This document shows positions 44,412 through 60,925 of a stretch of 64,000 nucleotides of DNA, one piece after another. This DNA comes from Roseomonas haemaphysalidis. GTDB lineage: Bacteria > Pseudomonadota > Alphaproteobacteria > Acetobacterales > Acetobacteraceae. The translations under genes and the position numbers were made by a program. Each line of letters begins with the position of its first letter. Position 1 is the stretch's first letter. The notes under the pieces are model-generated. The model saw only the letters and a program-made list of their open reading frames with translations. It was not told the DNA's origin and searched no databases. Location of the stretch: NCBI RefSeq assembly GCF_017355405.1, contig NZ_CP061179.1, positions 357,393 through 421,392 on the forward strand, written 5' to 3'.

Positions 44412-45818
44412 TCATTCATTGCGATGACGGGGGCCACCCCCAGCCATGGCGCCCGCGATGCGGCCCATGGCCACCGCTGTCAGCAGCCCGTTGCCCGACA
44501 GGTAGCCCTCCGCCCGGCTACCTGACACGCCGCAGGCTGCGCCCCCGGCCGCGAAGAGGTTGGGCAGCGCCGTGCCGTCCGGGCGCAACACGCGGGCTTC
44601 CCCATCCGTGGTCAAGCCGCCCTGCGTGTGGAACAGCGCACCTGTGACACGCACGGCGCGAAAGGGCGGCTGCAATGGCGCCACGCCCTCGAAAGCACGG
44701 CCGTAGCGGTCCTTCCCCTGCCCCGCCTTACAGCCCTCCACCCGCTCCAGCGTGTCACGCAGCGCGGCGGGGGGCAGACCGGTGGCCTCGGCCAGCGCTT
44801 CGATGCTGGGGGCCGAGATGATAGCGCCCGCGGCCTCGGCCTGGCGGAAGTCCTCGAATTGCCGGGCAATGCTGGCGATGCGCTCGTCGAACACCGACCA
44901 CGCTATGGCGCCGGGCTGGCGCAGCACGCTGGCGGCCTGTTCGGAATAACCGTGGCTTTCGTCGGAAAAGCGCCGGCCTTCCGCGTTCACCTGGATGCCG
45001 CCTTCCATAATGGTGGCCCAGGTGATCAGGATGCCGATCGGGTGCGCGACGGAGCCGTGTCCCTGATGGCCGGACAGGTGCCGCGTGCCGGCGCCCAGCG
45101 CCTCGCCCCAGAGCAATGCCTCGCCTTGGTTGCCGGGGTGGCCGAAGTACAGCGCGCCGGCCAGCGAGGGTACGTGCCGCGCCACCAGATCCGGATTGCC
45201 GCCATAGCCATTGCAGGCCAGCACCAGCGCGTCGCAACCCACCTGCTCCATGCTGCCATCCGGCCGGCGCAGCGCCACGCCGCGGATGCAACCGCCGTCA
45301 TCGGCGAACAAATCTGTCACCTGCGCATCGCACAGGATGTCGATCCCCGCCTGCTCCACCGCGTTGCGCAGCCGGTCCACCAGTTCCTCGCCGGACCGGC
45401 TGGGCAGGCCGTGCATGCGGCAAGCCGAATGGCCGGGGTAGCGGAAGTCGGTGATCACGGAGAAATCCAGCCCGTGACTGTCCGCCAGCCATTCCAGCGT
45501 GGGGGCGATGCCTTCCGTCGCGGCACCGACCAGCACCGGGTCCGGCTCGCCATCCGCCTTGCGCATGATGTCGGCGGCGAAGAGGGCGGGGCTGTCCTCT
45601 TCCCCTGCCGCCCGCTGCCAGCGGGTGCCCGGGGCCGGGATCAGGCCGGCGGACAGGGCGGTGGAGCCGCGCGGCACGGCGTCGCGCTCCAGGACCAGCA
45701 CCTCGGCGCCCGCCTCGCCCGCCGCCAGCGCGGCTGTCAGCCCGGCGGCACCGGCGCCGACCACCAGCACGGGCACGGTGAACTCAAAGGCCGCACCGCC
45801 GGCGGGCAGGATGCTCAT
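44412..45818 (-). CDS. FAD-dependent oxidoreductase, fumarate-reductase flavoprotein type
   Basis: A protein of 468 residues from ATG 45818; the frame is open further upstream only as a shadow of the neighbouring genes. The FAD site VLVVGAGAAGLTAALAAGEA lies at the N-terminus, GSTALSAGLIPAPGTR follows, and the FRD-like end is HTQGGLTTDGEARVLRPDG, then FAAGGAACGVSGSRAEGYLS. Relatives include tricarballylate dehydrogenase and ketosteroid dehydrogenases. Last gene of the minus-strand catabolic operon, overlapping the hydrolase gene by 4 bases. A role in oxidising or reducing a carbon-carbon bond of a carboxylic acid is inferred. Confidence 0.87.
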   Translation of the reverse strand: MSILPAGGAAFEFTVPVLVVGAGAAGLTAALAAGEAGAEVLVLERDAVPRGSTALSAGLIPAPGTRWQRAAGEEDSPALFAADIMRKADGEPDPVLVGAATEGIAPTLEWLADSHGLDFSVITDFRYPGHSACRMHGLPSRSGEELVDRLRNAVEQAGIDILCDAQVTDLFADDGGCIRGVALRRPDGSMEQVGCDALVLACNGYGGNPDLVARHVPSLAGALYFGHPGNQGEALLWGEALGAGTRHLSGHQGHGSVAHPIGILITWATIMEGGIQVNAEGRRFSDESHGYSEQAASVLRQPGAIAWSVFDERIASIARQFEDFRQAEAAGAIISAPSIEALAEATGLPPAALRDTLERVEGCKAGQGKDRYGRAFEGVAPLQPPFRAVRVTGALFHTQGGLTTDGEARVLRPDGTALPNLFAAGGAACGVSGSRAEGYLSGNGLLTAVAMGRIAGAMAGGGPRHRNE

Positions 45819-46429
45819 GCGGCGCCGAGCTCCGCCATCGCCTCGGCGATGGTGGCCACGCGGCAGACCGGGCGAAGCGCGGCAATGGCCGTGTCGTGCA
45901 CCTCGGCGGAAAAAGCGGCGCAGCCGTCGGACAGCACGGTCACGTCGATGTCCCGGACATGCGCTTCCCGGACCGTGGAGGCGACGCCGCCATTGGTCAC
46001 GATGCCGCCGACGATCAGCCGGCGGATGCCGCTCTTGCGCAGCACCCATTCCAGCCGGGTCATGTAGAAGGCCGAGTAGGCGACCTTCTCGACCAACAGG
46101 TCGGCCGGCTGCAACTCGTCCACCAACTGGTGCCCCCAGGCACCGGGCTGGAAATCGCCCTTCCGCAGAAAAGGCCGCAGCGAAAGCAGGTGTGGCGAAA
46201 CGATGGGCTCGCCACCCTTGCCCGGCACCAGGGTGAACTGTGTGGAAACCACCCAGCCGCCGCTGGCCTGCAGCCCGCGGGCCAGCGGCGCGAGGCGCGC
46301 CGGCAGCGCAGCGATGGCCGGCGCCCCCTGCCCGCCACGGGCATAGGCGCCGTCCGGGTGCACGAAGTCGTTCTGCAGGTCGACGATCAGCAGCGCCGTG
46401 TCCTGCGGGGGGATGGTCTCCTGGCTCAT
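45815..46429 (-). CDS. Isochorismatase-like hydrolase lacking the usual cysteine
   Basis: A protein of 204 residues. The family Asp (ALLIVDLQNDFVHPDGAY) and Lys (LVEKVAYSAFYMTRLEW) are present. In the nucleophile loop the sequence is GGIVTNGGVASTVREAH, so Gly stands where cysteine hydrolases of this family have Cys (TN-x-CV). True isochorismatases such as EntB and PhzD also have Gly there and cleave a vinyl ether without a Cys nucleophile. A conventional amidase function is therefore doubtful. It overlaps both operon neighbours by 4 bases. Confidence 0.87.
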   Translation of the reverse strand: MSQETIPPQDTALLIVDLQNDFVHPDGAYARGGQGAPAIAALPARLAPLARGLQASGGWVVSTQFTLVPGKGGEPIVSPHLLSLRPFLRKGDFQPGAWGHQLVDELQPADLLVEKVAYSAFYMTRLEWVLRKSGIRRLIVGGIVTNGGVASTVREAHVRDIDVTVLSDGCAAFSAEVHDTAIAALRPVCRVATIAEAMAELGAA

Positions 46430-48480
46430 GCCGCGGCCTCCACGATGACGTTGCCGAGCTCATCCACCCGCGCGGACAGCCCGGGGTCCACCACTGTTGT
46501 GGCGTCCGGTTGCTCCAGGATGGCAGGACCCGGAATCACGGCGCCCACCGGCAACTCCAGCCGCGCGAAGATCGCGGCCTCATGCCAGGCGCCAGAGAAC
46601 CAGACGGGACGCGTGCCCCGCGCCGCCCCTTGGACAGAGGCGCCGGCTTCCGGCGCCAGGGCGCGCAGGTCGAAATGCGGCCGGCGGCCGACGGCGGCGG
46701 TGCGCAGGTTGACGATGCGCGCGGCGACACCTGGCAGCAGCCGGCTGAAGGAGGTGCGGTAGCTCTCCTCGAAGGCCCCGCGCACCACCGCTTCCGTCAC
46801 GCCCGTGGTACCGCCCGACACTGCGACGGGCAGCGGCACGGACACGGTGTGCGTCTGGCCGGCGTAGTGCATGTCCAGCGCGAAGAGGATGTCGATCCGC
46901 TCCACCGGCAGTCCGGCCTCGGCCACCACGGCGCGCACCGCCGCAGCCTCGGCCACCATGCGCCGGTCCAGCGCGGCGGCGTCCAGCCCTTCCAGCATCA
47001 GGTTCAGCGTCTGCACCTGATCGTGGCGGATATCCGCGATCACGCAGCCAAGGGCGGAAGTGACGCCGGGATAGCGCGGCACCAGCGCCGCCTTGAGGCC
47101 CACGTCGCGGATCAGCGCACCGGCATGCAGCGCGCCGCCGCCGCCGAAGGGCACAGCCGCGAAGCGCGACGGGTCGTGCCCGCGCTCGATCGACACCAGC
47201 CGGATGGCACCTGCCATGTGGCCGTTGGCGACCCGCAGGATCGCCTCCGCCGCCGCCATGGCGTCGAGCCCCAGTGGCTTGCCCACATGCTCCAGGATGG
47301 CGGCCTTGGCGGCCTCCACATCTAGCCGTGCCAGCTTGCCGCCGATGGGGCGCTCCGCGTTGATGCGGCCGAGCACCACGTTGGCATCCGTCAGCGTCGG
47401 ACGAGTGTTGCCCTGCGCGTAGCAGACGGGGCCGGGGCGGGAGCCGGCACTTTCCGGTCCCACCTGCAGCAGCCCGCCGGCATCGACGCGGGCGATGGAG
47501 CCGCCGCCGGCGCCGATGGTAGTGATCTCGATCATCGGCGTGCGGATCACCAGGCCGAAGTCGATGGTGGTCTGCGCCGCCAGCGCGGTTTCCCCGCCCA
47601 CCACCAGTGAAACATCGAAGGACGTGCCGCCCAGATCACCGGTGATGACGTCCGGGAAGCCCGCCGCGCGGGCGATGGCCGCCGCCGCGATGACGCCGGC
47701 CGCCGGGCCCGACAGCGCGGTGCGCACCGGCAGCCGACGCGCGGAGGCCGTGGACATCACGCCGCCGTTGGACTGAACGATGTGGAAGCGGCCGGTGAAG
47801 CCGTCGCTTTGCAGCGCGGCGTCCAGCTTGCCGAGGTAGGAGCCCACCACCGGTTGCAGGTAGGCATTCAGCGCGGTGGTGGAGGTGCGCTCGAACTCGC
47901 GGATCTCAGGCAGGATCTGGCTGGAACAGGCGATGGTGTCGCCGGTCCAGACCTCGGCCGCCGCCGCCAGGGCCGCCTGCTCGTTGGCCGGGTTGGCATA
48001 GGCGTTGATGAAGACGATGGCCAGCGCCTCGGCGCCCTGTGCGATCAGCTGTCGCGCGGCGGCGCGCACCTCCTCCGCATCCACCGGCTCGCGGATCGTG
48101 CCGTCGGCCAGCACGCGCTCGCCCACTTCCAGGCGCATGTCGCGGTCCACCACGGGCACGAAGTCGCCCCACAAACCCCAGGTGCGGAGCCGGTCGCGGC
48201 GGCGCATCTCCAACACGTCGCGGAAGCCGCGCGTGGTGATCAGCCCGACCCTGGCACCCTTGCGCTCCAGCAGCGCGTTGGTGCCGACGGTCGTGCCGTG
48301 CACGACGGAGGCGAGCTGCGACACCGGGCCGAAGGTCCGCAACCCGTCCAGGAAGCCCACTGCCTCGTCGCCGCGGTTGGACGGCACCTTGGCGGTACGG
48401 AAGCGCCCTTGCGCCTCATCGAAGCAGAACAGGTCGGTGAAGGTACCGCCGACATCGACCCCAACGATCGTACCGCTCAT
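46426..48480 (-). CDS. hyuA: Hydantoinase/oxoprolinase family protein A (HyuA-like)
   Basis: An ATP-binding subunit of 684 residues. The actin-fold motifs are complete: IVGVDVGGTFTDLFCFDE at the start, VVHGTTVGTNALLERKG, ITGDLGGTSFDVSLVVGG, the TIGAGGGSIARVDAGG loop and GPESAGSRPGPVCYAQG. Family members use ATP to open lactam or hydantoin rings (5-oxoprolinase, N-methylhydantoinase) or to phosphorylate ketones for carboxylation (acetone carboxylase). It overlaps hyuB by 4 bases, so both subunits are made together. The substrate within this operon is unknown. Confidence 0.93.
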   Translation of the reverse strand: MSGTIVGVDVGGTFTDLFCFDEAQGRFRTAKVPSNRGDEAVGFLDGLRTFGPVSQLASVVHGTTVGTNALLERKGARVGLITTRGFRDVLEMRRRDRLRTWGLWGDFVPVVDRDMRLEVGERVLADGTIREPVDAEEVRAAARQLIAQGAEALAIVFINAYANPANEQAALAAAAEVWTGDTIACSSQILPEIREFERTSTTALNAYLQPVVGSYLGKLDAALQSDGFTGRFHIVQSNGGVMSTASARRLPVRTALSGPAAGVIAAAAIARAAGFPDVITGDLGGTSFDVSLVVGGETALAAQTTIDFGLVIRTPMIEITTIGAGGGSIARVDAGGLLQVGPESAGSRPGPVCYAQGNTRPTLTDANVVLGRINAERPIGGKLARLDVEAAKAAILEHVGKPLGLDAMAAAEAILRVANGHMAGAIRLVSIERGHDPSRFAAVPFGGGGALHAGALIRDVGLKAALVPRYPGVTSALGCVIADIRHDQVQTLNLMLEGLDAAALDRRMVAEAAAVRAVVAEAGLPVERIDILFALDMHYAGQTHTVSVPLPVAVSGGTTGVTEAVVRGAFEESYRTSFSRLLPGVAARIVNLRTAAVGRRPHFDLRALAPEAGASVQGAARGTRPVWFSGAWHEAAIFARLELPVGAVIPGPAILEQPDATTVVDPGLSARVDELGNVIVEAAA

Positions 48481-50123
48481 GCCACGTCTCCCTTCGAGAC
48501 ATAGCCCATGCGGCGGTCGCGCTCGGCGGCCGCCGTGTCACGCGCGGCGGGCTCGCCCCAGCCGCCGCCGCCCGGCGTTTCCAGCCGCACGCGCTGCCCG
48601 GCCTTCAGGCGGATGTCGGTGATCTTGCTGACCATGGGCGGGGACTGCTCGCCCTCGTCGCTTTGCCAGGAGAAGCGGTTCAGCGCGGCGCTGCCGCCGC
48701 CATGCACGCCGAAGGGCGCAACCTTGCCCCGCTCGCCCAGCAATGACACGCTGGCATCCGTCAGCGCCTCGATCTCGTAGACGGCGCCGAGGCCGCCGCG
48801 ATGCTGGCCCATGCCGCCGGAATCCGGGCGCAGCGCCCATTGCGTGAACATCACCGGGTAAGCGGCCTCCAGGATCTCCACCGGCGGGATGGTGGCGGTC
48901 GAGATCGGGTTGTTGGCGTGGTTGAGACCGTCCGTTTCCGGATTGCCACCGAGTCCGCCACCAAAGAACGAAAACATCACCCAGCGTGAGCCATCGGCGC
49001 GGTGGCCGGCCAGCGACAACGCATTGATGGTGCCGAAGGGCGCCGCCGTGGCGCGCGCCGGATCCGCCTTGGCGAGTGCACCGAAGATCACGCCGATCAG
49101 CCGCAGCACCGTCTCGGTATAGCCGGCCACGGGCTTGGGCGCCGTGGCGCTGAGCAGCATGCCGTCCGGCACCACGAAGGTGATGGGGCGGAGGCACCCG
49201 GCATTGGCCGGCACCTCCGTGAAGACGTGCTTCAGCGCCACGTAGCAGCCGGCGATGGTGGTGGAGCGGGCGATGTTGATCGGCCCCTGTGCCGGCGGCG
49301 AGGAACGGGAAAAGTCCAGCACCATGCCGTCGCCCGCGATGGTCAGGTCCAGCGCGATGGTCAGCGGGTCGTCAGTGATGCCGTCGTTGTCCAGCACGTC
49401 CTCGAACGAATAGGTGCCGTCCGGCAGGCTGGCGATGGCGGCGCGCATCAGCGCCTCGGCGCGGGCCGAGAAGGCGGTGAAGGCCTCGGCCACCAGCGCC
49501 TCACCATGCTCGTCGATCAGCGCGGCCACGCGCTTCTCGCCGAGGTCCAGCGCGTTGAGCTGGCCGTTCAGGTCGCCCCAGTTGGAGGTGGGCACGCGGG
49601 AGTTGGCGGCCAGGATGTCCAGGATGTCCTGGCTGACCACGCCGTCGCGGATCAGCCGCACGGGCGGGATGCGGAAGCCTTCCTGGAAGCTTTCGGTGGC
49701 CTTGGGATTGTAGCTGCCTGGCACGTTGCCGCCGACATCCAGCCAGTGCCCGGCCGAGGCCATCCAGCAAAACAACCGCCCCTGGCGGAACACCGGCCGC
49801 ACCAGCCGCATGTCGTTGAGATGCGTGCCGCCCTCGTAGGGGTCGTTGAACAGGAAGGTATCGCCCTCCCGCAGGTCGCCCTCGCGCGCCACCTTGCTGA
49901 TCACCGCCTTCACGGCAAAAGCCATGGCGCCGACGAAGATCGGCAGCCCGCTGGTGCCCTGCACCAGGGTCTCGCCGGTTTCCGCGTGGTAGAGGCCGTG
50001 GCAGGCGTCCTTGGCCTCGGCGATGATCGGATTGAAGGCGGAGCGGAACAACGTCGCGTCCATCTCGTCCGCGATCTGCTCCAGCCGGCCCTTCAGGATG
50101 GCCAGCGTGACGGGATCGATCAT
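48477..50123 (-). CDS. hyuB: Hydantoinase/oxoprolinase family protein B (HyuB-like)
   Basis: A catalytic subunit of 548 residues with the family pattern DPVTLAILKGRLEQIADEMD at the start, FLFNDPYEGGTHLNDMRLV (metal-binding Asp/His region), GRLFCWMASAGHWLDVGGNV and PGSYNPKATESFQEG; the C-terminal region is rich in Gly with a final RLETPGGGGWG. It pairs with the HyuA-like protein directly downstream and overlaps the lyase gene upstream by 4 bases. The usual length and all landmarks are present. Confidence 0.93.
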   Translation of the reverse strand: MIDPVTLAILKGRLEQIADEMDATLFRSAFNPIIAEAKDACHGLYHAETGETLVQGTSGLPIFVGAMAFAVKAVISKVAREGDLREGDTFLFNDPYEGGTHLNDMRLVRPVFRQGRLFCWMASAGHWLDVGGNVPGSYNPKATESFQEGFRIPPVRLIRDGVVSQDILDILAANSRVPTSNWGDLNGQLNALDLGEKRVAALIDEHGEALVAEAFTAFSARAEALMRAAIASLPDGTYSFEDVLDNDGITDDPLTIALDLTIAGDGMVLDFSRSSPPAQGPINIARSTTIAGCYVALKHVFTEVPANAGCLRPITFVVPDGMLLSATAPKPVAGYTETVLRLIGVIFGALAKADPARATAAPFGTINALSLAGHRADGSRWVMFSFFGGGLGGNPETDGLNHANNPISTATIPPVEILEAAYPVMFTQWALRPDSGGMGQHRGGLGAVYEIEALTDASVSLLGERGKVAPFGVHGGGSAALNRFSWQSDEGEQSPPMVSKITDIRLKAGQRVRLETPGGGGWGEPAARDTAAAERDRRMGYVSKGDVA

Positions 50124-50995
50124 TCAGCGGCGCCCTTGAAGGAATCGTAGCTCTGGCCCAGAGCCAGCATCTCCGGCGTGCCGATCAATGCGTTGAGCTG
50201 TGTGAAGTCGAACATGCGCTCCGCGAAGGGCGCGTTGCTGCCATTGGCGGCCAGCGAGCGATAGTAATCCTGCGCCGCGCGGGCCAGGGCGCGCACGATG
50301 CCGCCGGGAAAGATCACCAGCCGGAAGCCCATGGCACCGAGGTCGTCGGCGGATGAGATCGGCGTGTCGCCGCCCTCCACCATGTTGGCGAGCAAGGGAC
50401 GCTTGCCCCCGAGGCTTTCCACCACCTTGGCCATCTGCGCGCGGTCGCGCGGGGCCTCCACGAACAAGACGTCGGCGCCCGCCTCGGCATAGAGATGCGC
50501 ACGGTCCAGCGCGGCGGACAGCCCCTCCACCGCGACTGCGTCGGTGCGGGCGATGATCAGCGTCTCCTCGCTGGCGCGGGCATCGACGGCAGCCTTGACC
50601 TTGCCGGCCATCTCGTCTGCCGGGATCAATGCCTTGCCTTGCAGGTGGCCGCAGCGCTTGGGCAGCGTCTGGTCTTCCAATTGAAGCGCGGTCGCGCCCG
50701 CCCGCTCGAACATCCGCACGGTGCGCTGGGTGTTGAGCGCGTTGCCGTGGCCGTTGTCCGCATCCACCACCAGCGGCAATGCCACACGGTCTCGGATCAA
50801 CGCCACGGTCTCGGCCATCTCGGCCATGGACACCAGCCCGATGTCGGGGCGGCCGAGGCGGGTATAGGCGACGGCGGCACCAGAGACGTAGAGCGCCTCG
50901 AACCCCGCACCGGCCGCGATGCTCGCGGTCAGCGCGTCGTAGATGCCGGGTGCCACGACGGGGCGCGGCCCTGCCAGCCTTTGCCGGAAGCTCAT
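50120..50995 (-). CDS. Isocitrate lyase/PEP mutase family protein
   Basis: A TIM-barrel protein of 291 residues. The active-site loop LEDQTLPKRCGHLQGK carries the K-R-C-G-H signature of lyases (methylisocitrate lyase, dimethylmalate lyase, oxaloacetate decarboxylase), with the metal-binding segment VDADNGHGNALN before it. The Cys acts as acid/base in C-C cleavage, so a lyase splitting a 2-hydroxy-acid into pyruvate-, glyoxylate- or succinate-like halves is expected, not a phosphonate mutase. It overlaps both its operon neighbours by 4 bases. Confidence 0.9.
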   Translation of the reverse strand: MSFRQRLAGPRPVVAPGIYDALTASIAAGAGFEALYVSGAAVAYTRLGRPDIGLVSMAEMAETVALIRDRVALPLVVDADNGHGNALNTQRTVRMFERAGATALQLEDQTLPKRCGHLQGKALIPADEMAGKVKAAVDARASEETLIIARTDAVAVEGLSAALDRAHLYAEAGADVLFVEAPRDRAQMAKVVESLGGKRPLLANMVEGGDTPISSADDLGAMGFRLVIFPGGIVRALARAAQDYYRSLAANGSNAPFAERMFDFTQLNALIGTPEMLALGQSYDSFKGAAE

Positions 50996-52389
50996 AGGGA
51001 TTCTCCTGCCAGCAGCGCATGCAGCGGTGCCAGGGTGGTGGCCGTGCCCAGCGCCATCACCGCCTCCGCCACGCGGGCGGCATGGGCGTGGCCCCAGACG
51101 GGGTCGGCCAGCTCATGGAACTTCGCGACGATGTCCGAGGCCGCGAAGGGGTCCTCGGTATCGCCGCGGTTGGTTTCGACGGCAGCCTCGCGGACGGTGC
51201 CATCGCGCAACAGCACGCGCAGGCGGGCGGGGCGGAGCCCGGGCAGGCGCGCCGTCAGCGCCGGGTCCTCCCGCACCACCACGCGGGCGGCGAGCGCCAG
51301 CGTTTCGGCCTGGTGCAGCGCCGGCTCGCGGAAGGCGGGCACGGTCGCCGCGCCGTGCACGATGCTGGTGGCCAGCGCGAAGGGCAGCGAGAACTTGGCG
51401 GACAGCATGTTGCGCGGCTGCGGCAGGTCCAGCTGCGCGGCCCAGACATAGGTATCCACCTCGATCCGCTCGATCGCGGCGGCGTCCAGCGGCGCCTCGG
51501 CCTGAAGTGCCGCCAAAGCATCCAGCGCGCCGTGGGTGTAGCGGCAGGCAGCGTGGCGCTTGAAGTAGTTGCGGGCGATCTCCCAGCGCGTGCCGAGATC
51601 CTCGACCATGTCTTCCGGCCGGAAGTCCTCGGCGATGATGCCGCCATAGACGGCGCCGACACCATCCGTTTCACCGATGAACCCGGACTGCGCCAGGTCC
51701 CAGGCCAGGAGGCCAAGCTGGTTGGACAGGCCGGCATAGCTGTTCCGCACCGTCGCACCTTCCAGCATGGTGCGCCGGCTGGTGGACAGGCCGAAGGAGG
51801 AAGCGATGTTCAGCACCTCGCGCATCCGGTCCGCATCCCCTCCGTGCAGCGCGGCCACCGCCAGCGCGGCGCCAACGGTGCCCCAGGTGCCATGCGGGTG
51901 CATCGTCACCCGCAGCTTGCTGCTGATGCCGATGCGCGCGCCGATCTCGTAGCCCAGCGCCAGGGCACCCAGCACGGCGGCGCCGGTCGCATCGGGCCGT
52001 GCCGCCAGCACCGCCGGCACGACATGGATGCCGGGGTGGCCGCGCGCATACTGGTTGCCTTCGTCCAGCTCCAGCATCGTGCCGGCGGTGCCGTGCGCAA
52101 AGGCATTGGCGCCGGGTGCCAGCGATACGCCCCCGCCGATCACCGGCAGGCTGCCAGACTGCGTCGCGGCCAGGCGCGGCAGCAGCACCCGCAACTCCGG
52201 CTCCTGCATGCCCGAGGCGATGACGCCGATGCTGTCCAGCAGCACCAGCTTGGCGCGGTCCATGGCTTCCGCCGGCAGATGTGCCGGGCGGAAATCGGCG
52301 GCGAAGCGCGACCATTGTTCCAACCAGGGTGGCGTGCCCTGTTGCAACAGCACGGAAGCAGGCTGGACGCCGGGGGTGACGATGCTCAT
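50992..52389 (-). CDS. MmgE/PrpD family protein
   Basis: A protein of 465 residues from ATG 52389; the open frame beyond is the ABC gene in another frame. Family landmarks: KLVLLDSIGVIASGMQEPEL, NAFAHGTAGTMLELDEGNQ, YEIGARIG, MHPHGTWGTVGAALAVAALH and YFKRHAACRYTHGALDAL. PrpD dehydrates 2-methylcitrate to 2-methylaconitate, and relatives include cis-aconitate decarboxylase and iminodisuccinate epimerase. It is placed between the transporter genes and an ICL-type lyase, with 4-base overlap to the lyase gene, which favours a dehydratase step on a di- or tricarboxylate. Confidence 0.9.
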   Translation of the reverse strand: MSIVTPGVQPASVLLQQGTPPWLEQWSRFAADFRPAHLPAEAMDRAKLVLLDSIGVIASGMQEPELRVLLPRLAATQSGSLPVIGGGVSLAPGANAFAHGTAGTMLELDEGNQYARGHPGIHVVPAVLAARPDATGAAVLGALALGYEIGARIGISSKLRVTMHPHGTWGTVGAALAVAALHGGDADRMREVLNIASSFGLSTSRRTMLEGATVRNSYAGLSNQLGLLAWDLAQSGFIGETDGVGAVYGGIIAEDFRPEDMVEDLGTRWEIARNYFKRHAACRYTHGALDALAALQAEAPLDAAAIERIEVDTYVWAAQLDLPQPRNMLSAKFSLPFALATSIVHGAATVPAFREPALHQAETLALAARVVVREDPALTARLPGLRPARLRVLLRDGTVREAAVETNRGDTEDPFAASDIVAKFHELADPVWGHAHAARVAEAVMALGTATTLAPLHALLAGESL

Positions 52390-52396
52390 GCAAGCC

Positions 52397-53098: not shown

Positions 53099-53840
53099 GC
53101 GGTGCCTCCGCCTTGATGCGATCGGCGGCACCGTGGCCGAGATAAGCCTCGATCACCACGGGGTCGGCGCAGACGGCGCGTGGCGCGCCTTCCGCGATCA
53201 TGCGGCCCTGCGCCAGCACATGGACATGGTCGCACAGGTTCATCACGGCCTGCATCACGTGCTCGATCATCAGGATGGTCACGCCGCGGTCGCGGATGGT
53301 GCGGATGACCGGCAGGATGTCGCGCACTTCCGAGGGGTTGAGACCGGCCAACACCTCGTCAAGCAGCAGGAGGCGCGGTTCGGTGGCCAGGGCGCGGGCC
53401 AGCTCCAGCCGCTTGCGCCCGGCGACGGTGAGGGCGGAGGCCGGGCCGTCCAGCATGGAACCGAGGCCCACTTCGCGCGCCACGGCCTCAGCCCGCACAA
53501 GCGCCTCGGCACGGCCGGGGTGGCGCAGATACGCGCCGACCGCGATGTTGTCGCGCACCGACAGCCCCGCGAAAGGCTGCACGATCTGAAAGGTGCGGGC
53601 GATGCCCCGGCGGGCACGCAGGTGCGGCGCTTCCCGCGTCACGTCCTGGCCGTCAAACTCGACGCTGCCGGCGCTGGGTTCCAGAAAGCCGGAGATCAGC
53701 GCGAAAAGTGTGGTCTTGCCCGCGCCATTCGGCCCGATCAGGCCGGTGATGGCGCCGGCGGGCACCTGCAGGGAAGCGCCATCCACCGCCAGAAGGCCGC
53801 CGAAGCGACGGGACAATCCGTTGACCGAAAGAAGGCTCAT
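53091..53840 (-). CDS. livG: Branched-chain-type ABC transporter ATPase (LivG-like)
   Basis: A protein of 249 residues. Walker A is GPNGAGKTTLFALISG, then RGIARTFQIVQPFAGLSV as is typical for LivG, the ABC signature region ALTVAGRKRLELARAL (degenerate, as often in LivG), Walker B LLLLDEVLAGLN, and IMIEHVMQAVM. Its start overlaps the stop of the LivM-like gene by 4 bases. It pairs with the LivF-like protein as the heterodimeric motor. Confidence 0.92.
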   Translation of the reverse strand: MSLLSVNGLSRRFGGLLAVDGASLQVPAGAITGLIGPNGAGKTTLFALISGFLEPSAGSVEFDGQDVTREAPHLRARRGIARTFQIVQPFAGLSVRDNIAVGAYLRHPGRAEALVRAEAVAREVGLGSMLDGPASALTVAGRKRLELARALATEPRLLLLDEVLAGLNPSEVRDILPVIRTIRDRGVTILMIEHVMQAVMNLCDHVHVLAQGRMIAEGAPRAVCADPVVIEAYLGHGAADRIKAEAPHA

Positions 53841-54787
53841 CCCGCGCGCCCCTTGAACAGCCGGCGCAGGCCCATCACCCCATTGGGTGCGAAAGCCACG
53901 GACAGGATCAGCACGGCACCGAAAATGGCGAGGTCGATGCCGGTGATCTGACCAGACACCAGCTTGGTGGCCTCACCCAACCCGTGCAGCGCCAGCGCGC
54001 CGACCACGGGGCCGAGCACCGTGCCCAACCCACCGATGATGGAGGCGATCAGCACCTCCACCGAGATCCAGGTGCCATAGGCGATGTTGGCGTCCAGGTA
54101 GAGAAAGTTCTGCATGTAAAGGCAGCCCGCCGCCGCCGTGATGGCAGCCGACAGCGAGATGGCCTTGAGCTTGGTGGCCAGCACGTCCACGCCCAGCGCG
54201 CGGGCCGCATCCTCATTTTCCCGCACCGCGACGAGTTGCGCGCCGAAGCGGCTGCGTTCGATGGAGGCGGTCAGCAGCAGCACGAACAGGATGCAGCCCA
54301 GGACCAGCCACAGAAACACCCCGCGGTCAGGGAACTGCAGGTTGCCGAAGCCGGGCTGCAGGCGGATCAGCAGCCCCGCCGCACCGCCGGTGAAGTCCGC
54401 CGCATTGGCCAGGATGCGCAGCACCTCGGCGAAGGCCAGCGTCACCAGCGCGAAGTAGGAGCCGCGCAGCCGCGCGCGAAACGACAGAAAGCCGATGACC
54501 CAGCCCACCACCGCGCCCAGCGCGATGCCCGCCGCCATGCCGGCCCAGGCGTTGATGCCGAATCGGATCTGCAGAAGGGCTGTGACATAGGCGCCCATGC
54601 CGAAGAAGGCGGCGTGGCCGAAGGAAAGTTGGCCGCCGAAGCCGGCCAGCAGGTTCCAGCCCTGCGCCCCCAGCGCGACGATCAGCGCCGAGACCAGGAA
54701 ATTCAGCATGGTGCCGGAGGCGAAGAACGGCAGCACCGCCAGCACCGCCACCAGCAGCACGGGGGCCGCGATATCGCGCGCGCTCAT
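53837..54787 (-). CDS. livM: Branched-chain-type ABC transporter permease (LivM-like)
   Basis: A membrane protein of 316 residues with about nine hydrophobic segments. Start ATG 54787 overlaps the LivH-like gene by 4 bases; the longer open frame upstream is a shadow. Family markers are ALGAQGWNLLAGFGGQLSFG, HAAFFGMGAYVTALL, and RENEDAARALGVDVLATKL, the cytoplasmic EAA-like loop that contacts the ATPase. Confidence 0.92.
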   Translation of the reverse strand: MSARDIAAPVLLVAVLAVLPFFASGTMLNFLVSALIVALGAQGWNLLAGFGGQLSFGHAAFFGMGAYVTALLQIRFGINAWAGMAAGIALGAVVGWVIGFLSFRARLRGSYFALVTLAFAEVLRILANAADFTGGAAGLLIRLQPGFGNLQFPDRGVFLWLVLGCILFVLLLTASIERSRFGAQLVAVRENEDAARALGVDVLATKLKAISLSAAITAAAGCLYMQNFLYLDANIAYGTWISVEVLIASIIGGLGTVLGPVVGALALHGLGEATKLVSGQITGIDLAIFGAVLILSVAFAPNGVMGLRRLFKGRAG

Positions 54788-55656
54788 GCCCGGGCTCCAA
54801 ACAACCCGGTGGGGCGCACCAGCAGCATCAGGATGAAGATCAGGAAGATGCCGAGCTGGCCAAGGCTTTCGCCCAGCAGCAGCCCGCCCAGGCTTTCCAC
54901 CACGCCCACCAGCAGCCCGCCCACCAGCGCACCGGTGATGGAGCCCATGCCGCCCAGCACCACGATGGTGAAGGCGACCAGCACGAAGGCATTGCCGACG
55001 CGCGGATTGACGTAGAAGGTCGGCAGCAGGAGGCAGGCGGCCACCGCCAGGCAGGAGCAGCCGATGCCGAAGGTGACCGCGAAGATGTGCCGCGGGTCGA
55101 TGCCGGACAGCTGCGCGCCCAGCTTCTCCTTGGCCACGGCGCGGATGGCGCGGCCGGTGTCGGTCGCCGACAACAGCAGCCACAACAGCCCGGCGGTGAC
55201 CAACGCGACGGCGAAGCCGATCAGCCGCGGGCGGGACAGCAGCATGGGCCCCAGCTCGATGACATCGAAGGCCGTGTCGGCACCCAGCGTGCGGGTGTCC
55301 GACTTGAAGGCCGCCAGCAAGAGGTTCTCCAGGATGATGGACAGCCCCAGCGTCACCAGCAGGGTGTTGCGGTCCTCGCCATGGCTGGATGGGCCGATGA
55401 CGAAGCGCTGCAGCCCGTAGCCAAAGGCGAAGAAGACGGCGGCCAGCGGCAGGATGGACCAGTACGGGTCCACCCCCAGCCACAGGTGCATGCCCAGCAC
55501 CGCGAACATGGCACAGGTCAGCAGCGCGCCATGCGCGAAGTTCACGATATGCAGCACGCCGTAGACCAGCGTCAGCCCCAGCGCGATCAGCGCGTAAGTG
55601 CCGCCGGTCAACAGGCCGTTCACCACGGCCTCGGCGATGATTTCAGGCGAATACAT
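54784..55656 (-). CDS. livH: Branched-chain-type ABC transporter permease (LivH-like)
   Basis: A membrane protein of 290 residues. It carries the LivH start pattern AVVNGLLTGGTYALIALGLT, VYGVLHIVNFAHGALLTCAM, the loop IRAVAKEKLGAQLSGID for coupling to the ATPase and a VLGGMGSITGALVGGLLVGV segment. It overlaps the LivM-like gene by 4 bases and follows the binding-protein gene by 12 bases. Confidence 0.92.
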   Translation of the reverse strand: MYSPEIIAEAVVNGLLTGGTYALIALGLTLVYGVLHIVNFAHGALLTCAMFAVLGMHLWLGVDPYWSILPLAAVFFAFGYGLQRFVIGPSSHGEDRNTLLVTLGLSIILENLLLAAFKSDTRTLGADTAFDVIELGPMLLSRPRLIGFAVALVTAGLLWLLLSATDTGRAIRAVAKEKLGAQLSGIDPRHIFAVTFGIGCSCLAVAACLLLPTFYVNPRVGNAFVLVAFTIVVLGGMGSITGALVGGLLVGVVESLGGLLLGESLGQLGIFLIFILMLLVRPTGLFGARA

Positions 55657-55668
55657 TCAGTGTCCCGT

Positions 55669-56871
55669 TCAGCCCTGCACCGGGAAGACCGGCTTGGCGT
55701 CGGCCACTTCCTCGGGGAAGATGACCTTGATGTCCTCGCCCTGCACCTGGGTGTTGACCGGGCGGGCGCCCTGGTTCTGGCCCTGGGCGAACTTGGTGGG
55801 GCCATAAGGCATGATGTGGCCAGCGAATTCGCTGGCAGCCAGCGCCTGCGTCACCTTGGCGCGGTCCGTACCGCCGGCGCGCGCGATGGCGTCCGCTGCC
55901 AGCTTCACGCAGGAATAGTTCAGCGGAATGTTGTAGGCCCAGAACTTGCCGCTGTCCTCCACCTGCTTCTTGAGCGCCAGCGCCTCAGCGTTCTTGGGAT
56001 CGTGCCAGTGGTTGCAGTCCATGACGTTGAGCGCCGCGTCCGGAAATTCCTTGACGAAGCGAAAGTTGGAAGCAGCACCGTTCAGCACGGCGTAGATGCC
56101 CTTGGGCCGGATGCGCTGCTGCCGCATGGTGCGGGCCAGCAAGACGAACTCACCATAATAGCTGGAGGGGATCACTAGGTCCGGGCGCAGCGAGCGGATA
56201 CGCAGCGCGACGTTGGACATGTCGCGCGCCGGCGTCGGGTGGGCGATGGTTTCCAGGATCTCGAAGCCGCGCTTGGGAAGCTCGGTCTGCATCAGCTTGG
56301 CGAGGCCGGAGCCGAACAGCCCGTCCTCATGCACCAGCACCACCGTCTTGCAGGGCTTGCCGGCGGCATCGTTCAGCTTGGACAGGTTGTCCAGCGCCGT
56401 CGCGGTCACCATGCCGAAGCCGGGGGCGAAGCGGAAGGTATTGGTCAGGCCGCGCTGCAGGATCGCGTCCGACACGCCCACATCGACGATGTAGGGCAGG
56501 TCGTAGCGCGCAGCCGCCTGCGAGGCCGCCAGGCAGATCGGGCTGGCGAAGCCGCCGACGATGGCAGCCACGCCTCCGGCCTGCAGCTTCTCGACCTCCT
56601 GCGCCGCAGCCTCGGGGTTGGAGCGCGCGTCGGCCACCACCAGCTCCAGCTTGGCGCCGTTGATGCCACCGGCCTTGTTGATCGCCGCCGCCGCCGCTTC
56701 CGCGCCGATCCGCCCCAATTCACCGTCCTGCGCCAGGGCGCCGGTCAGCGGCTGCAGGATGCCAAGCTTCACCGCTGCGGGCTGCGCCCGCAGGATGCGC
56801 GGCATGGCGAGCGTGGTGGCCAGCCCGGCGGTGCCGGCCAGCACGGCGCGGCGGGAAAGCGGAAGCATCAT
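55669..56871 (-). CDS. livK: Branched-chain-type ABC substrate-binding protein (LivK-like)
   Basis: A periplasmic receptor of 400 residues with a Tat-like signal MMLPLSRRAVLAGTAGLAT ending near LRAQPAA. The type I periplasmic fold is shown by VKLGILQPLTGALAQDGELG, AAIVGGFASPICLAASQAA, and FRFAPGFGMVTATALDNL. It starts within the stop of the GntR gene (ATGA), so the importer is co-transcribed with its regulator. Ligand unknown; catabolic neighbours suggest an organic acid or amide in place of leucine. Confidence 0.9.
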   Translation of the reverse strand: MMLPLSRRAVLAGTAGLATTLAMPRILRAQPAAVKLGILQPLTGALAQDGELGRIGAEAAAAAINKAGGINGAKLELVVADARSNPEAAAQEVEKLQAGGVAAIVGGFASPICLAASQAAARYDLPYIVDVGVSDAILQRGLTNTFRFAPGFGMVTATALDNLSKLNDAAGKPCKTVVLVHEDGLFGSGLAKLMQTELPKRGFEILETIAHPTPARDMSNVALRIRSLRPDLVIPSSYYGEFVLLARTMRQQRIRPKGIYAVLNGAASNFRFVKEFPDAALNVMDCNHWHDPKNAEALALKKQVEDSGKFWAYNIPLNYSCVKLAADAIARAGGTDRAKVTQALAASEFAGHIMPYGPTKFAQGQNQGARPVNTQVQGEDIKVIFPEEVADAKPVFPVQG

Positions 56872-57764
56872 GACGTGGTCCTCTTGCTGCGGGGGGGCCG
56901 CGCGGGCTTGGCGTTTTGGTTGTTGGCCGCGTCCCCGGTGCCGGGGGGCGGCAGCGGGCTCCAGCGGCGTTCGCCGAGCGCGCCGGTGCGCTGGAGCTGC
57001 ATTTCGAAGGAAAAGCGGTCCGGGCGATACAGCGCGTGCAGGTGCTCCACCGCGCGCCCCGCCTCGTCTTCCACCAGCCGGGTCAGCGACAGCAGTGGCG
57101 CGCCGATCTCCAGCTGCAGCAGCCCCGCAACCTCCGGCCCGGCCAGCGTGGCGCCGATGCTTTGCCGCGCGCGGCCCACCACGGCGCCCGAGCGTTCCAG
57201 AAGCGCCAAAAGCGGCTGGCTGGCGAGCTCGGCTTCCGAATAGGTGTGGCCCAGCCGCTCTGGCACATGGGTGGTGAGAAAGGAAAAGGGCGCGTCGCCC
57301 AGCATGCGCACGCGCACAGCGCGCTGCGCCCGCTCCCCCGGCGCGAGGCCCAGCGCCGCCGCCACGGCGGCGGCTGGCACCAGGTAGTCGAAGGACAGGA
57401 GCCGTACTTCGGTGCGCCGGCCCATTTCCTTGAGGTGCGAGAAGACATCCGAGAAGTCGAGCACCGTGGTGCCCAGCGCCGGCAGGCCCGCGCGCACGAA
57501 GGTGCCGACACCGGGGCGGCGCTCCACCAGTTGCTCGGCCACCAGCTGCTCGAGGGCGCGGCGCACCGTGACGCGCGACACGCCATAGGCGGCGGCGAGG
57601 TCCGGCTCGCCCGGCAGGCGGTCGCCCGCCGGCAGCGCACCGCTGCCGATGCGGTCGCGCAGCAGCAGATAGATGCGGCGGGCCTTGAACGGCTCTACGG
57701 CGGCGTCCACGCGCTTCCTGTTCCCTTCGTGACGGCGACTGGGCTGTCTGGTTTCTAAGACCAC
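56868..57764 (-). CDS. GntR-family transcriptional regulator (HutC/UTRA type)
   Basis: A protein of up to 298 residues. The frame opens with GTG 57764; another GTG at 57710 follows AGGAAG and would give 280 residues. The winged helix LPGEPDLAAAYGVSRVTVRR, then ALEQLVAEQLVERRPGVGTF is followed by an effector-binding UTRA domain. The C-terminus is basic (PARPPRSKRTTS). It is the first gene of the catabolic operon and diverges from leuC; a palindrome at 57766-57789 is the likely operator for both directions. Confidence 0.9.
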   Translation of the reverse strand: MVLETRQPSRRHEGNRKRVDAAVEPFKARRIYLLLRDRIGSGALPAGDRLPGEPDLAAAYGVSRVTVRRALEQLVAEQLVERRPGVGTFVRAGLPALGTTVLDFSDVFSHLKEMGRRTEVRLLSFDYLVPAAAVAAALGLAPGERAQRAVRVRMLGDAPFSFLTTHVPERLGHTYSEAELASQPLLALLERSGAVVGRARQSIGATLAGPEVAGLLQLEIGAPLLSLTRLVEDEAGRAVEHLHALYRPDRFSFEMQLQRTGALGERRWSPLPPPGTGDAANNQNAKPARPPRSKRTTS

Positions 57765-57765
57765 T

Positions 57766-57862: not shown

Positions 57863-59281
57863 ATGCCGGGCACCGCCGCGCCGCGCACGCTGTTCGACAA
57901 GGTGTGGGACGAGCACGTCATCCTGACGCGGGAAGACGGGCAAAGCCTGCTCTGGATCGACCGCCACTTCTTTCATGAGGGCTCGCATCATGCCTTCGCG
58001 CAGCTCCGCGCGCGGGATGCCAGGGTGGCGCGTCCGGCGCTGAACATCGGCGTGGCGGACCACTACGTGCCGACGCACGGCCGGGGCGGCCCCATCGCGG
58101 ACCCCGGCATCCGCCTGATGGTGGACCAGCTGTCCGACAACGCCGCCAAGCACGGGCTGCGGCTGTTCGGGCTGGACAGCCCGGGCCAGGGCATCGTGCA
58201 CGTGGTGGGGCCGGAACAGGGGCTGACCCTGCCGGGGCTGACCATCGTCTGCGGCGACAGCCACACCTCCACCCACGGCGCCTTCGGCGCGCTGGCCTTC
58301 GGCATCGGCGCCTCCGAGGTGGCGCATGTGCTGATGACGCAGACGCTGTGGCAGCGCCGGCCGAAGCGCATGCAGATCGTGATGGATGGCACGCTGGCGC
58401 CGGGCATCGGCGCCAAGGATATCGCGCTGTCCATCATCGCCGCCATCGGCGCGGACGGCGCGCAGGGCCACGCGGTGGAATACGCCGGCAGCGCCGTGCG
58501 GGCGCTGTCCATGGAAGGCCGGCTGACGCTGTGCAACCTGGCCATCGAGAGCGGCGCGCGCTGCGGCATGGTGGCACCGGACGAGACCACCCTGCGCTAC
58601 CTCCGCGGCCGCCCCTTCGCTCCCGCCGGCGCGGAGTTCGACCGCGCCGCCGCGCATTGGCTGAGCCTGGCCAGCGACCCGGACGCCGCCTTCGACCGTG
58701 AGGTGCGGCTGGACGCCGCCGCCATCGCGCCGGTCGTCACCTGGGGCGTCAGCCCTGAGGACGCCTTGCCCGTCACCGCCACCCTGCCCGACCCGGCGGC
58801 GGCGCGCGACGAATCCCATGCCGCGCAGATCCGGGACGGGCTGGACTACATGGGTCTGCAAGCGGGGCAGAAGATTTCCGACATCCGCATCGACCGCGTG
58901 TTCATCGGCTCCTGCACCAACAGCCGGATCGAGGATCTGCGCGCCGCCGCTGCCGTGCTGGCCGGGCGCCGTTCGCTGGTGCCGGGCATGGTGTCGCCCG
59001 GCTCCACGCTCGTGAAGCATCAGGCGGAACAGGAAGGACTGGACCGCATCTTCCGCGACGCCGGGCTGGAATGGGTGGAGTCCGGCTGCTCCATGTGCGT
59101 CGGCATGAACGGCGACCTGGTGCCGCCGGGCGAGCGCTGCGCGTCCACCACCAACCGCAACTTCCGCGGGCGGCAGGGGCCGGGCTCGCGCACCCACCTG
59201 ATGTCGCCGGCCATGACGGCCGCCGCCGCCGTGTGCGGCCACCTGACCGACGTACGGCCGCTTCTGGAAGGGCGCCTGTGA
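57863..59281 (+). CDS. leuC: LeuC-type hydro-lyase large subunit (isopropylmalate dehydratase family)
   Basis: A protein of 472 residues of the aconitase superfamily. The [4Fe-4S] cluster cysteines appear in GSCTNSRIEDLRAA and in ESGCSMCVGMNGDLVPPG; other landmarks are VCGDSHTSTHGAFGALAFGI and SSTTNRNF-like CASTTNRNFRGRQGPGSRTH. GAAGGGGAAA precedes the ATG. The motif reads CSMCVGMNGD instead of the common CAMCLAMNPD, which may mean a substrate other than isopropylmalate. It overlaps leuD by 1 base and diverges from the GntR/ABC operon, so hydration of another dicarboxylate, for example a methylated maleate or aconitate analog, is plausible. Confidence 0.9.
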   Translation: MPGTAAPRTLFDKVWDEHVILTREDGQSLLWIDRHFFHEGSHHAFAQLRARDARVARPALNIGVADHYVPTHGRGGPIADPGIRLMVDQLSDNAAKHGLRLFGLDSPGQGIVHVVGPEQGLTLPGLTIVCGDSHTSTHGAFGALAFGIGASEVAHVLMTQTLWQRRPKRMQIVMDGTLAPGIGAKDIALSIIAAIGADGAQGHAVEYAGSAVRALSMEGRLTLCNLAIESGARCGMVAPDETTLRYLRGRPFAPAGAEFDRAAAHWLSLASDPDAAFDREVRLDAAAIAPVVTWGVSPEDALPVTATLPDPAAARDESHAAQIRDGLDYMGLQAGQKISDIRIDRVFIGSCTNSRIEDLRAAAAVLAGRRSLVPGMVSPGSTLVKHQAEQEGLDRIFRDAGLEWVESGCSMCVGMNGDLVPPGERCASTTNRNFRGRQGPGSRTHLMSPAMTAAAAVCGHLTDVRPLLEGRL

Positions 59282-59889
59282 TGGAACCGCTGCGCATCCT
59301 GTCCGCCCGCGCCTGCCCACTGCCGCTGGCCAATGTGGATACCGACCAGCTCATTCCGGCGCGCTTCATGAAACGGCCGCGCTCGGCCGGCTACGGCGAC
59401 TTTCTTTTGCGCGATCTGCGCTTCGACGGCGATACGCCGCGCGCCGACTTCCCACTCAACCGCCCCGAACGCCAGGGCAGCCGCATTCTGGTGGCGCGGC
59501 GCAACTTCGGCAGCGGCTCCTCGCGCGAGGCGGCGGTCTACGCCCTAGTGGACCACGGCATCCGCTGCGTGCTGGCACCTTCCTTCGGCGACATCTTCTC
59601 GTCCAACGCCGTGAACAACGGCCTGCTGCCCGCGCGGATCGGTGAGGACGAAGCCGAGGCGCTGCTGAGCTGGCTGGACCAGGGCGGCGACAGCATGACC
59701 GTGAACCTGGAAGCCTGTCAGCTCGAAGCCGGCGGCCAGACCTTCGGCTTCGCGGTGGACCCGGTGTGGCGCACCAAGCTGCTGAACGGATGGAGCGACA
59801 TTGACCTGACGCTGAGCCACGCCGCCACGATCGACAGCTTCGCGCAAGCCGACAGCGAGCGCCGACCTTGGGTCATGCCGCCCAGATAA
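59281..59889 (+). CDS. leuD: LeuD-type hydro-lyase small subunit
   Basis: A protein of 202 residues, swivel domain of the aconitase superfamily: NVDTDQLIPARFMKRPRSAG, the RRNFGSGSSREAAVYALVDHG phosphate/carboxylate-binding loop shown by ARRNFGSGSSRE, and APSFGDIFSSNAVNNGLLPA. The ATG shares its A with the leuC stop codon. Together with LeuC it makes the heterodimeric hydro-lyase. The sequence does not say whether it works in leucine synthesis or in the neighbouring catabolic route; position favours the latter. Confidence 0.9.
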   Translation: MEPLRILSARACPLPLANVDTDQLIPARFMKRPRSAGYGDFLLRDLRFDGDTPRADFPLNRPERQGSRILVARRNFGSGSSREAAVYALVDHGIRCVLAPSFGDIFSSNAVNNGLLPARIGEDEAEALLSWLDQGGDSMTVNLEACQLEAGGQTFGFAVDPVWRTKLLNGWSDIDLTLSHAATIDSFAQADSERRPWVMPPR

Positions 59890-59944
59890 CACCCGCCCAC
59901 CCGCACAACCGGCGCCAAGAAAGCCGGAACAGGAGGACGTGCCC

Positions 59945-60925
59945 ATGCCCTTCCACCCGCCCCGCCGGGCCCTGCCCGCGCTGCTGCTAGCGGGCCTCGC
60001 CGCGCCACGTGTGGCGCGAGCCCAGGCCCCCTGGCCGGACCGCCCGGTCCGCTTCGTGATACCCTACCCGCCCGGCGGCTCCACCGACGTCATCGGCCGC
60101 CTGGTCGGCAATGCACTGGGGCAGGAACTTGGCCAGCCCGTGGTGATCGAGAATCGCGGCGGCGCCACGGCCACCATCGGCAGCCTCATGGTGTCGCAGT
60201 CACGGCCGGACGGCTACACGCTGCTGCTGTCCAACATCGCCAGCCACGCCATCGCCGCCACGCTGTTCCGCAACCTGCCTTACGACCCGGTGCGCGACTT
60301 CACCCACGTCGCGCTGCTGGTCACCACGCCCACCATCCTGGTCGTCAACCCGGCCTTCCCTGCCCACAGCCTGGCAGACGTGGTGCGACTGTCGCAGCAG
60401 GCCCCGGGCGGGCTGGACATGGCGTCATCCGGGACCGGCTCCTCCAACCACCTGCTGCTGGTACGCTTCGCGGAACTGACCGGCGCCAAGCTGAACCACG
60501 TGCCCTATCGTGGCGGCGGGCCGGCCATGACCGACGTGATCGCCGGCACGGTGCCCATGATGTCGGACACCCTGCCCTCCGCCCTGCCGCATCTGCGCGG
60601 CGGCGCCGTGCGCGCCCTGGCGGTCAGTGGGCCGGAGCGCTCGCCCCTGGTGCCGGAGGTACCGACCTTCCGCGAAGCCGGCATCGACCTGATCAACCTG
60701 CCCTGGTACGGCCTGTCCGCCCCGGCGGGGCTGGAGCCGGGCATCCGCGATCGCCTGGCCAGCGCCATCAGCAAGGTGCTCGCCGCGCCAGCCCTGCGGG
60801 CACGGCTGGCGGAGCTGGGCAGCGAGCCGGGCGACATGGGGCCTGCGGACTATACCCGGTTCGTGGGCGAGGAAGCCAAGCGCTGGGCGCCGGTGGTCAA
60901 GGCTTCCGGCGCGCAGGCCGACTGA
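59945..60925 (+). CDS. Bug-family tripartite tricarboxylate transporter receptor
   Basis: A periplasmic receptor of 326 residues. ATG 59945 lies 8 bases after AGGAGG; GTG 59939 is too close. Signal PRRALPALLLAGLAAPRVARA, then WPDRPVRFVIPYPPGGSTDV, VIENRGGATATIGS and NHVPYRGGGPAMTDVIAG define the Bug family. Third gene of the leuCD transcript. Together with the LivK-like receptor the locus has two different carboxylate/amide receptors, while TctAB permease genes are absent here. Confidence 0.9.
   Translation: MPFHPPRRALPALLLAGLAAPRVARAQAPWPDRPVRFVIPYPPGGSTDVIGRLVGNALGQELGQPVVIENRGGATATIGSLMVSQSRPDGYTLLLSNIASHAIAATLFRNLPYDPVRDFTHVALLVTTPTILVVNPAFPAHSLADVVRLSQQAPGGLDMASSGTGSSNHLLLVRFAELTGAKLNHVPYRGGGPAMTDVIAGTVPMMSDTLPSALPHLRGGAVRALAVSGPERSPLVPEVPTFREAGIDLINLPWYGLSAPAGLEPGIRDRLASAISKVLAAPALRARLAELGSEPGDMGPADYTRFVGEEAKRWAPVVKASGAQAD

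Follow-up and report, generated by a model that had tools for sequence, protein, structure and literature searches.

What is taken up and broken down by a locus whose enzymes are named after leucine, hydantoin, methylcitrate and isocitrate? The question is raised by fifteen genes at positions 44412 to 60925 of a 64,000-nucleotide stretch of Roseomonas haemaphysalidis DNA (contig NZ_CP061179.1; hereafter the window), in which a LivKHMGF importer stands with the ring opener HyuAB, an isochorismatase-like hydrolase, a lyase of the isocitrate lyase (ICL) type, a PrpD-family protein, a flavoprotein and a LeuCD pair. Because sequence models assign the enzymes to those four pathways, a conserved catabolic pathway may hide under wrong names, and it may span many soil, plant-associated and marine bacteria. 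The set is real and conserved and combines known kinds of enzyme in a new way; among the matches listed from the open-access literature, none described it. We consider it probable, if only just, that the locus takes up a five-membered cyclic imide and breaks it down, by reactions whose nature and order we infer.

A scan with the PrpD alignment, using one genome per species, yielded 149 relatives, of which the best 80 were kept; the 59 of these loci in which PrpD was flanked by more than 9 kb on each side were used, while the remaining 21 were too short and were left out. With genes counted as present at a match of at least 45% identity, the importer, HyuAB and the isochorismatase-like gene occurred together in 57 of the 59 loci (LivK, LivH, LivM, LivG, LivF, HyuA, HyuB and the isochorismatase-like gene each in 57), and the flavoprotein occurred in all 59. 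The ICL-like gene and LeuC were each found in 47 loci, GntR in 46 and LeuD in 45. The common gene order was observed in Methylobacterium, Microvirga, Azospirillum, Bosea, Roseomonas and others, and its recurrence is more than chance. LeuDC diverged from the genes running from GntR to the flavoprotein, which is the order of the window, in 18 loci; LeuCD was downstream in 18, a divergent flavoprotein was combined with downstream LeuCD in 8, and 5 had other orders. Ten loci, under the names Falsiroseomonas, Roseomonas and Acetobacteraceae, had no ICL-like gene, LeuCD or GntR; all are Acetobacteraceae by name, and a single event may account for them. Strict joint loss of the ICL-like gene and LeuCD was rejected as a rule, with two exceptions each way. 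An earlier account of the window, drawn up from its letters and here called the sequence-only reading, had proposed one co-inherited import-and-degrade locus, and this was borne out, the homologous loci not being scattered. The module is nevertheless patchy, since PrpD at 57% identity or more was found in 8 of 200 genomes of the family sample, the window's own included, and no PrpD match at E 1e-60 was found in the three other genomes of the same genus in that sample.

As the first sample was tied to PrpD, the anchor was switched to HyuA. At 62% identity or more, HyuA was found in 7 of 398 phylum genomes besides the window's own; 6 of the 7 were taken, together with 6 of 40 listed plasmid rows (159 records matched) picked for spread, giving 12 stretches. 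HyuBA and the isochorismatase-like gene were present in all 12, the ICL-like lyase in 11 (the exception being Tistrella plasmid pTM2), LeuCD in 11 (partial at a contig end in L163; not seen in L166, where the stretch ends), and the flavoprotein in 10 (the exceptions being Paraburkholderia and Tistrella pTM2). PrpD was present in one of the 12; in the others it may lie elsewhere in the genome, as it does in Tistrella (pTM1). The smallest set, in Paraburkholderia, consisted of GntR, the importer, LeuC, LeuD, HyuB, HyuA, the isochorismatase-like gene and the ICL-like gene. In Sulfitobacter, TRAP transporter genes adjoined the set, with no Liv importer within the stretch. From these counts, the core consists of the ring opener, the isochorismatase-like protein, the hydratase and the lyase, with PrpD as an accessory. 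In Tistrella pTM2, HyuA appeared as two overlapping match pieces (L160:12025-14045) missing from the record's gene table, and may therefore be broken.

In the proposed pathway, LivKHMGF would import a five-membered cyclic imide, in the simplest case a 3,4-dialkylmaleimide, and HyuAB would open the imide ring with ATP to give the dialkylmaleamate half-amide. The Cys-less isochorismatase-fold protein would then free ammonia, and the loss of its catalytic Cys would be explained because the neighbouring carboxylate of the substrate would act as the nucleophile. LeuCD would hydrate the dialkylmaleate, and the ICL-family lyase would cleave the 2,3-dialkylmalate, yielding a 2-oxoacid together with a carboxylic acid. 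The flavoprotein and PrpD would be accessories that might place the double bond or deal with a different isomer. The combination of LeuCD and the lyase would call for a C4 diacid with a double bond, and HyuAB plus a second amide hydrolase for two C-N bonds; a double-bonded C4 diacid carrying two C-N bonds suggests a five-membered imide.

The ring opener is predicted to be an ATP-dependent cyclic-amide hydrolase composed of HyuA, the ATP-binding subunit (46426..48480, minus strand; PF01968, PF05378, PF19278), and HyuB, the metal-bearing subunit (48477..50123, minus strand; PF02538). Residues D39, H101, D104 and H126 of HyuB match by motif the D, H, D, H metal ligands of CapB as given in part of PMC8453981; H101, D104 and H126 were found in all 103 rows (97 distinct), and D39 in 95, with a gap in 8. 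In the portion of that paper relied on here, the hydrolases of the HyuAB/CapAB family all act on cyclic amides. Among solved relatives, HyuA scored 408 bits with N-methylhydantoinase, 386 with 5-oxoprolinase and 308 with acetophenone carboxylase, a score order that makes a carboxylase less likely. That HyuAB opens a cyclic amide, as had been proposed before, is probably correct.

The isochorismatase-fold protein (45815..46429, minus strand; PF00857), a putative half-amide hydrolase, has Gly in place of the catalytic Cys (G148, within TNGG) in 100 of 100 rows (88 distinct). The Cys of RutB aligns to this position, where E. coli EntB also has Gly. The fold and the Asp and Lys of the triad are kept. 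By fold it is nearest to BiuH, TrtA and RutB, closely followed by the maleamate amidases. Maleamic acids hydrolyse through intramolecular nucleophilic catalysis, according to the part of PMC3913492 drawn on here. The protein looks central to the pathway although its catalytic Cys is lost, and it would offer a clear-cut system for testing amide hydrolysis assisted by the substrate.

The same two proteins could be used differently. In a hydantoin or ureide route, which we regard as unlikely, HyuAB would turn a substituted hydantoin into an N-carbamoyl amino acid by opening its ring, the carbamoylase would be the isochorismatase-like protein, and conversion of the amino acid would supply LeuCD and the lyase with a dicarboxylate. 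N-Methylhydantoinase being the best solved relative of HyuA, and the ureide hydrolases BiuH, TrtA and RutB the nearest to the hydrolase, both speak for this route, and so do two groups of loci. Three extended loci (L048, L049 and L128) carry two genes of the Asp/Glu/hydantoin-racemase family, relatives of hydantoin and allantoin racemases. They also encode a protein related to Old Yellow Enzyme, a second flavoprotein and a protein that one record annotates as a tautomerase, which in L049 has no Pfam match; L048 and L128 contain a second PrpD as well. The Sphingobium-type loci (L047, L119 and L126) keep PrpD, the flavoprotein and LeuCD in 3 of 3 cases, and after LeuDC and GntR have an HMG-CoA-lyase-like protein, another isochorismatase-like hydrolase (in L126 with Cys in the presumed catalytic motif, by eye) and a pair of PuuE-allantoinase-like proteins, neither of which reaches the PuuE cut-off. 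The ring opened by PuuE-type enzymes is a hydantoin. The Sphingobium-type loci look like the same chemistry carried out by other enzymes, with an analogous ring opener, amidase and C-C lyase; this counts in favour of the imide reading too, and does not separate an imide from a hydantoin. Against the hydantoin route, the invariant Gly would leave a carbamoyl group with no neighbouring carboxylate to substitute for the Cys; in Paraburkholderia, the genes running from GntR to the ICL-like gene include none annotated as a deaminase or transaminase, whereas LeuCD needs a diacid with a C=C bond; and Tistrella pTM1 has racemase-family genes with no HyuAB in its 31-kb stretch.

Another nitrogen ring, such as a lactam, a pyrrolinone or a heterocycle to which a molybdenum enzyme first adds a hydroxyl group, might lead to the same diacid ending; this we hold to be quite improbable. 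In its favour, all ten loci lacking the ICL-like gene and LeuCD have a CO/xanthine-dehydrogenase-type molybdenum large subunit after the flavoprotein (e.g., L059, L063 and L113), a family assignment checked in L063 and extended to the other nine by gene cluster. The CapA and CapB models of caprolactamase were also the best for HyuAB in NCBIfam, though at 500.5 and 305 bits they fell below the cut-off of 1000 each. However, a simple lactam would need no second amide hydrolase, and among the loci compared the molybdenum gene is confined to the Roseomonas/Falsiroseomonas-type group.

The imide reading places a 2,3-dialkylmalate lyase at the end of the pathway, a role proposed for the ICL/phosphoenolpyruvate (PEP)-mutase-superfamily protein (50120..50995, minus strand; KRCGH motif). 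Among 84 family rows with at least 50% identity to a reference, K121, C123, G124 and H125 were invariant, position 122 was R in 83 and K in 1, and all rows kept E115, R158, E188 and N210 (E. coli PrpB numbering). The position of PrpB Arg270, which we take to bind the third carboxylate, was occupied by Phe in 81 rows, as in the window, and by Leu in 3. With Arg270 lost, neutral side chains are favoured over hematinic acid in the substrate. The sequence-only reading had put a PrpD/AcnD/PrpB-like trio at the core, and a methylcitrate-like route for a tricarboxylate draws support from PrpB being the best NCBIfam model for the lyase and methylisocitrate lyase its best solved relative. We rejected it as very improbable: the lyase scored 281.7 bits against a PrpB cut-off of 354.4, and the PrpD and AcnD cut-offs were missed as well (LeuC reaching 88 bits against 1419.85 for AcnD; the sole methylcitrate dehydratase model listed for PrpD, NF042438, giving 26.6 bits against 950), Arg270 was absent from 84 of 84 rows, and PrpD was missing at 11 of the 12 HyuA-anchored loci. 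Import, probable ring opening and the LeuCD-lyase ending of the earlier chemistry are supported, the trio is not, and the isochorismatase-like gene, which looks central, had been left out of that chemistry.

The large subunit of the proposed dialkylmaleate hydratase, LeuC (57863..59281, plus strand), scored 645.8 bits against the NCBIfam leuC cut-off of 560.25, and the small subunit, LeuD (59281..59889, plus strand), scored 173.6 against 116.25. In a tree of 79 LeuCs, the window's LeuC fell within a 41-row branch of operon LeuCs (support 97/96), and the genome's other LeuC grouped with that of E. coli (99/93). In Paraburkholderia, the pair is replaced by one of the hacA/DmdB type: the large subunit passed the hacA-family cut-off (406.5 against 385.7) and was just below that of IPMI_arch (400 against 410.15), and the small subunit passed the LeuD/DmdB cut-off (152.4 against 108.95). 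Four such hacA-type large subunits formed a separate branch (100/96). The notion that LeuCD is a spare leucine enzyme lying by chance beside an unrelated importer and catabolic operon agrees with its passing the leuC and leuD cut-offs, but is hardly credible given LeuC in 47 of 59 PrpD-anchored and LeuCD in 11 of 12 HyuA-anchored loci, a different hydratase type inside the Paraburkholderia operon, and a second leuC-leuD elsewhere in the genome, followed by an isopropylmalate dehydrogenase-like (leuB-like) gene as read from its first residues, so that the window's copy is not the only one, as the sequence-only reading had considered it might be. Two further clusters of LeuCD-like and ICL-like genes, with Bug genes nearby, were seen in a single genome (L041 and L042, on contigs 3 and 2), that of L041 additionally with an HMG-CoA-lyase-like gene and, by eye, a CoA-transferase-like gene.

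The proposed accessories are the fumarate-reductase/urocanate-reductase-like flavoprotein (44412..45818, minus strand; PF00890) and the MmgE/PrpD-family protein (50992..52389, minus strand; PF03972, PF19305). H254, R283 and H397 of the flavoprotein were invariant across all 96 rows (91 distinct); in the alignment they fall on a His, an Arg and a His of flavocytochrome c3 fumarate reductase (Fcc3) that we take to be active-site residues. The best solved relatives of PrpD were B. subtilis IRG1 and iminodisuccinate epimerase.

Several observations, beyond the racemase-family and allantoinase-like genes described above, weigh against the imide reading. Gene content, conservation, residue changes and the replacement of steps by other families were read directly from the genomes; the substrate is assigned by enzyme logic. 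PrpD and the flavoprotein are left without a step of their own, and the latter has Tyr439 (95 rows, one gap) where Fcc3 has Arg, from which we would guess that it acts on a compound with one free carboxylate fewer than fumarate, for example an amide or imide. The ICL-like gene and LeuC were both absent from 10 of the 59 loci, the ICL-like gene occurred without LeuC in two (L050 and L123), and LeuC without the ICL-like gene in two (L119 and L126). In Tistrella pTM2, LeuCD is accompanied by an acyl-CoA dehydrogenase and a CoA-transferase and the ICL-like gene is absent, an arrangement that suggests a CoA-based ending (the two CoA genes lie between the hydrolase and LeuCD, L160:14741-19280), and the HMG-CoA-lyase-like protein of the Sphingobium-type loci passes the cut-off of a CoA enzyme. 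Taken together, the operon LeuCs do not form a single clade, and several rows are long-branched. In phmmer comparisons, the top solved relative of the lyase was methylisocitrate lyase (192.5 bits), above petal death protein (190.6), and the solved 2,3-dimethylmalate lyase (3fa3) reached just 169.4, below several PrpBs. Sequence rank thus fails to single out dialkylmalates, and the argument for them is made by the loss of Arg270 and by the gene neighbourhood.

If the imide is natural, the leading candidates, which we put forward tentatively, are methyl-ethyl- or methyl-vinyl-maleimide or hematinic acid derived from chlorophyll or heme. The hosts live in soil, on roots and leaves and in the sea (in part from record fields), habitats that we presume to be compatible with such a substrate and that are no test of it. 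In part of PMC7318184, the products given for the oxidation of chlorophyll and heme (tetrapyrroles) include hematinic acid and methyl-, methyl-ethyl- and methyl-vinyl-maleimide, and earlier work cited there had obtained maleimides and hematinic acid from senescent leaves and lake sediments. A further point against the imide is that, in the section of PMC7318184 used here, that paper's own leaf samples contained hematinic acid, and maleimides were not detected. It is conceivable, though rather doubtful, that the locus represents the last stage of natural tetrapyrrole mineralisation, a dedicated and widespread pathway that would take up the dialkylmaleimides remaining from oxidation of chlorophyll, heme and bilins and convert them to ammonia, short acids and 2-oxoacids, its amide hydrolase having no nucleophile of its own because the dialkylmaleamate would provide one. 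Were the substrate a tetrapyrrole fragment, the pathway would show how chlorophyll nitrogen returns to the cycle once the ring system falls apart; the portion of PMC7318184 relied on puts the making and degradation of chlorophyll on a scale of 10^12 kg per year.

A link to photosynthesis in the hosts was considered and not used as evidence, the association being weak and mixed. Of the other family genomes in which PrpD reaches at least 57% identity, 7 of 7 had a Photo_RC match, compared with 67 of 200 overall (66 over the cut-off); by genus the counts were 4 of 4 compared with 40 of 102, giving hypergeometric values of 0.0004 (genomes) and 0.02 (genera) that both ignore kinship. One of the seven genomes (G087) shows PrpD, the flavoprotein and Bug only, the window's own genome has no Photo_RC match, and in the phylum sample the counts were 2 of 7 compared with 30 of 398. 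The samples of 200 and 398 both include the window's own genome.

With gene starts chosen by hand, the layout agreed with that described in the sequence-only reading, comprising twelve minus-strand genes (44412-57764) and leuC-leuD-Bug in the opposite direction, and NCBIfam and Pfam scans matched the names given earlier to all fifteen. The 4-base overlaps, said before to be nearly universal, occur at 8 of the 11 minus-strand junctions; LivF and LivG overlap by 8 bases, and short gaps separate PrpD from LivF (7 bases) and LivH from LivK (12 bases). The remaining minus-strand genes are a GntR/UTRA regulator with a GTG start (56868..57764; PF00392, PF07702), the LivK-like periplasmic binding protein (55669..56871; PF13458), the LivH-like (54784..55656; NCBIfam UrtB/LivH) and LivM-like (53837..54787; UrtC/LivM) permeases, and the LivG-like (53091..53840; LivG) and LivF-like (52397..53098; LivF) ATPases, these last four with models below cut-off. 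GntR and LeuC diverge with 98 bases between them, LeuC and LeuD share 1 base, and LeuD is 49 bases from the Bug/TctC binding protein gene beside the module (59939..60925, plus strand; PF03401). Bug was rejected as a module part, since it is not conserved, with no match of at least 45% identity in the 59 full loci; weaker relatives adjoin several.

The genome measures 4.9 Mb, and the window forms the end of its contig 3 (421 kb). An RPA-type replication initiator (PF10134) is encoded at 61600-62469, close to the contig end, so that the module is probably on a 421-kb secondary replicon. Directly beside the module, at 41529-44407, a glycosyltransferase gene and a gene for a large membrane protein (both assigned by eye) have third-position G+C of 0.62 and 0.65, much lower than the values of about 0.8-0.9 in their upstream neighbours, and were therefore possibly acquired recently.

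The known systems closest to the locus each share part of it. The methylcitrate cycle (PrpB, PrpD, AcnD) draws on the same superfamilies, but the locus misses its equivalog cut-offs and Arg270. The lyase aligns with petal death protein (1zlp) over residues 12-285, where PrpB rows end at about 254-266, and with 3fa3 over residues 2-249 alone. The maleamate amidases NicF and Ami, of nicotinate and nicotine degradation, are 18-24% identical to the hydrolase, and Ami has C149 (PDB title) where Gly is expected in the hydrolase. In the N-methylhydantoin branch of creatinine breakdown, an ATP-dependent N-methylhydantoinase is followed by N-carbamoylsarcosine amidohydrolase; the locus shares this pairing of a HyuAB ring opener with an isochorismatase-fold hydrolase, but its hydrolase lacks the Cys and is accompanied by a hydratase and a C-C lyase. 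In the lower part of nicotinate fermentation, the dimethylmaleate hydratase DmdAB is followed by 2,3-dimethylmalate lyase, and the locus likewise combines a LeuCD-family hydratase with an ICL-superfamily lyase, a likeness to dimethylmaleate degradation that the sequence-only reading had recognised and that family membership continues to suggest. The window's LeuCD is of the bacterial LeuC type, and its likeness to DmdAB is one of family models rather than of direct comparison with Dmd sequences. Unlike nicotinate fermentation, the locus has its own importer, and its hydratase and lyase would be fed by HyuAB and the isochorismatase-fold protein.

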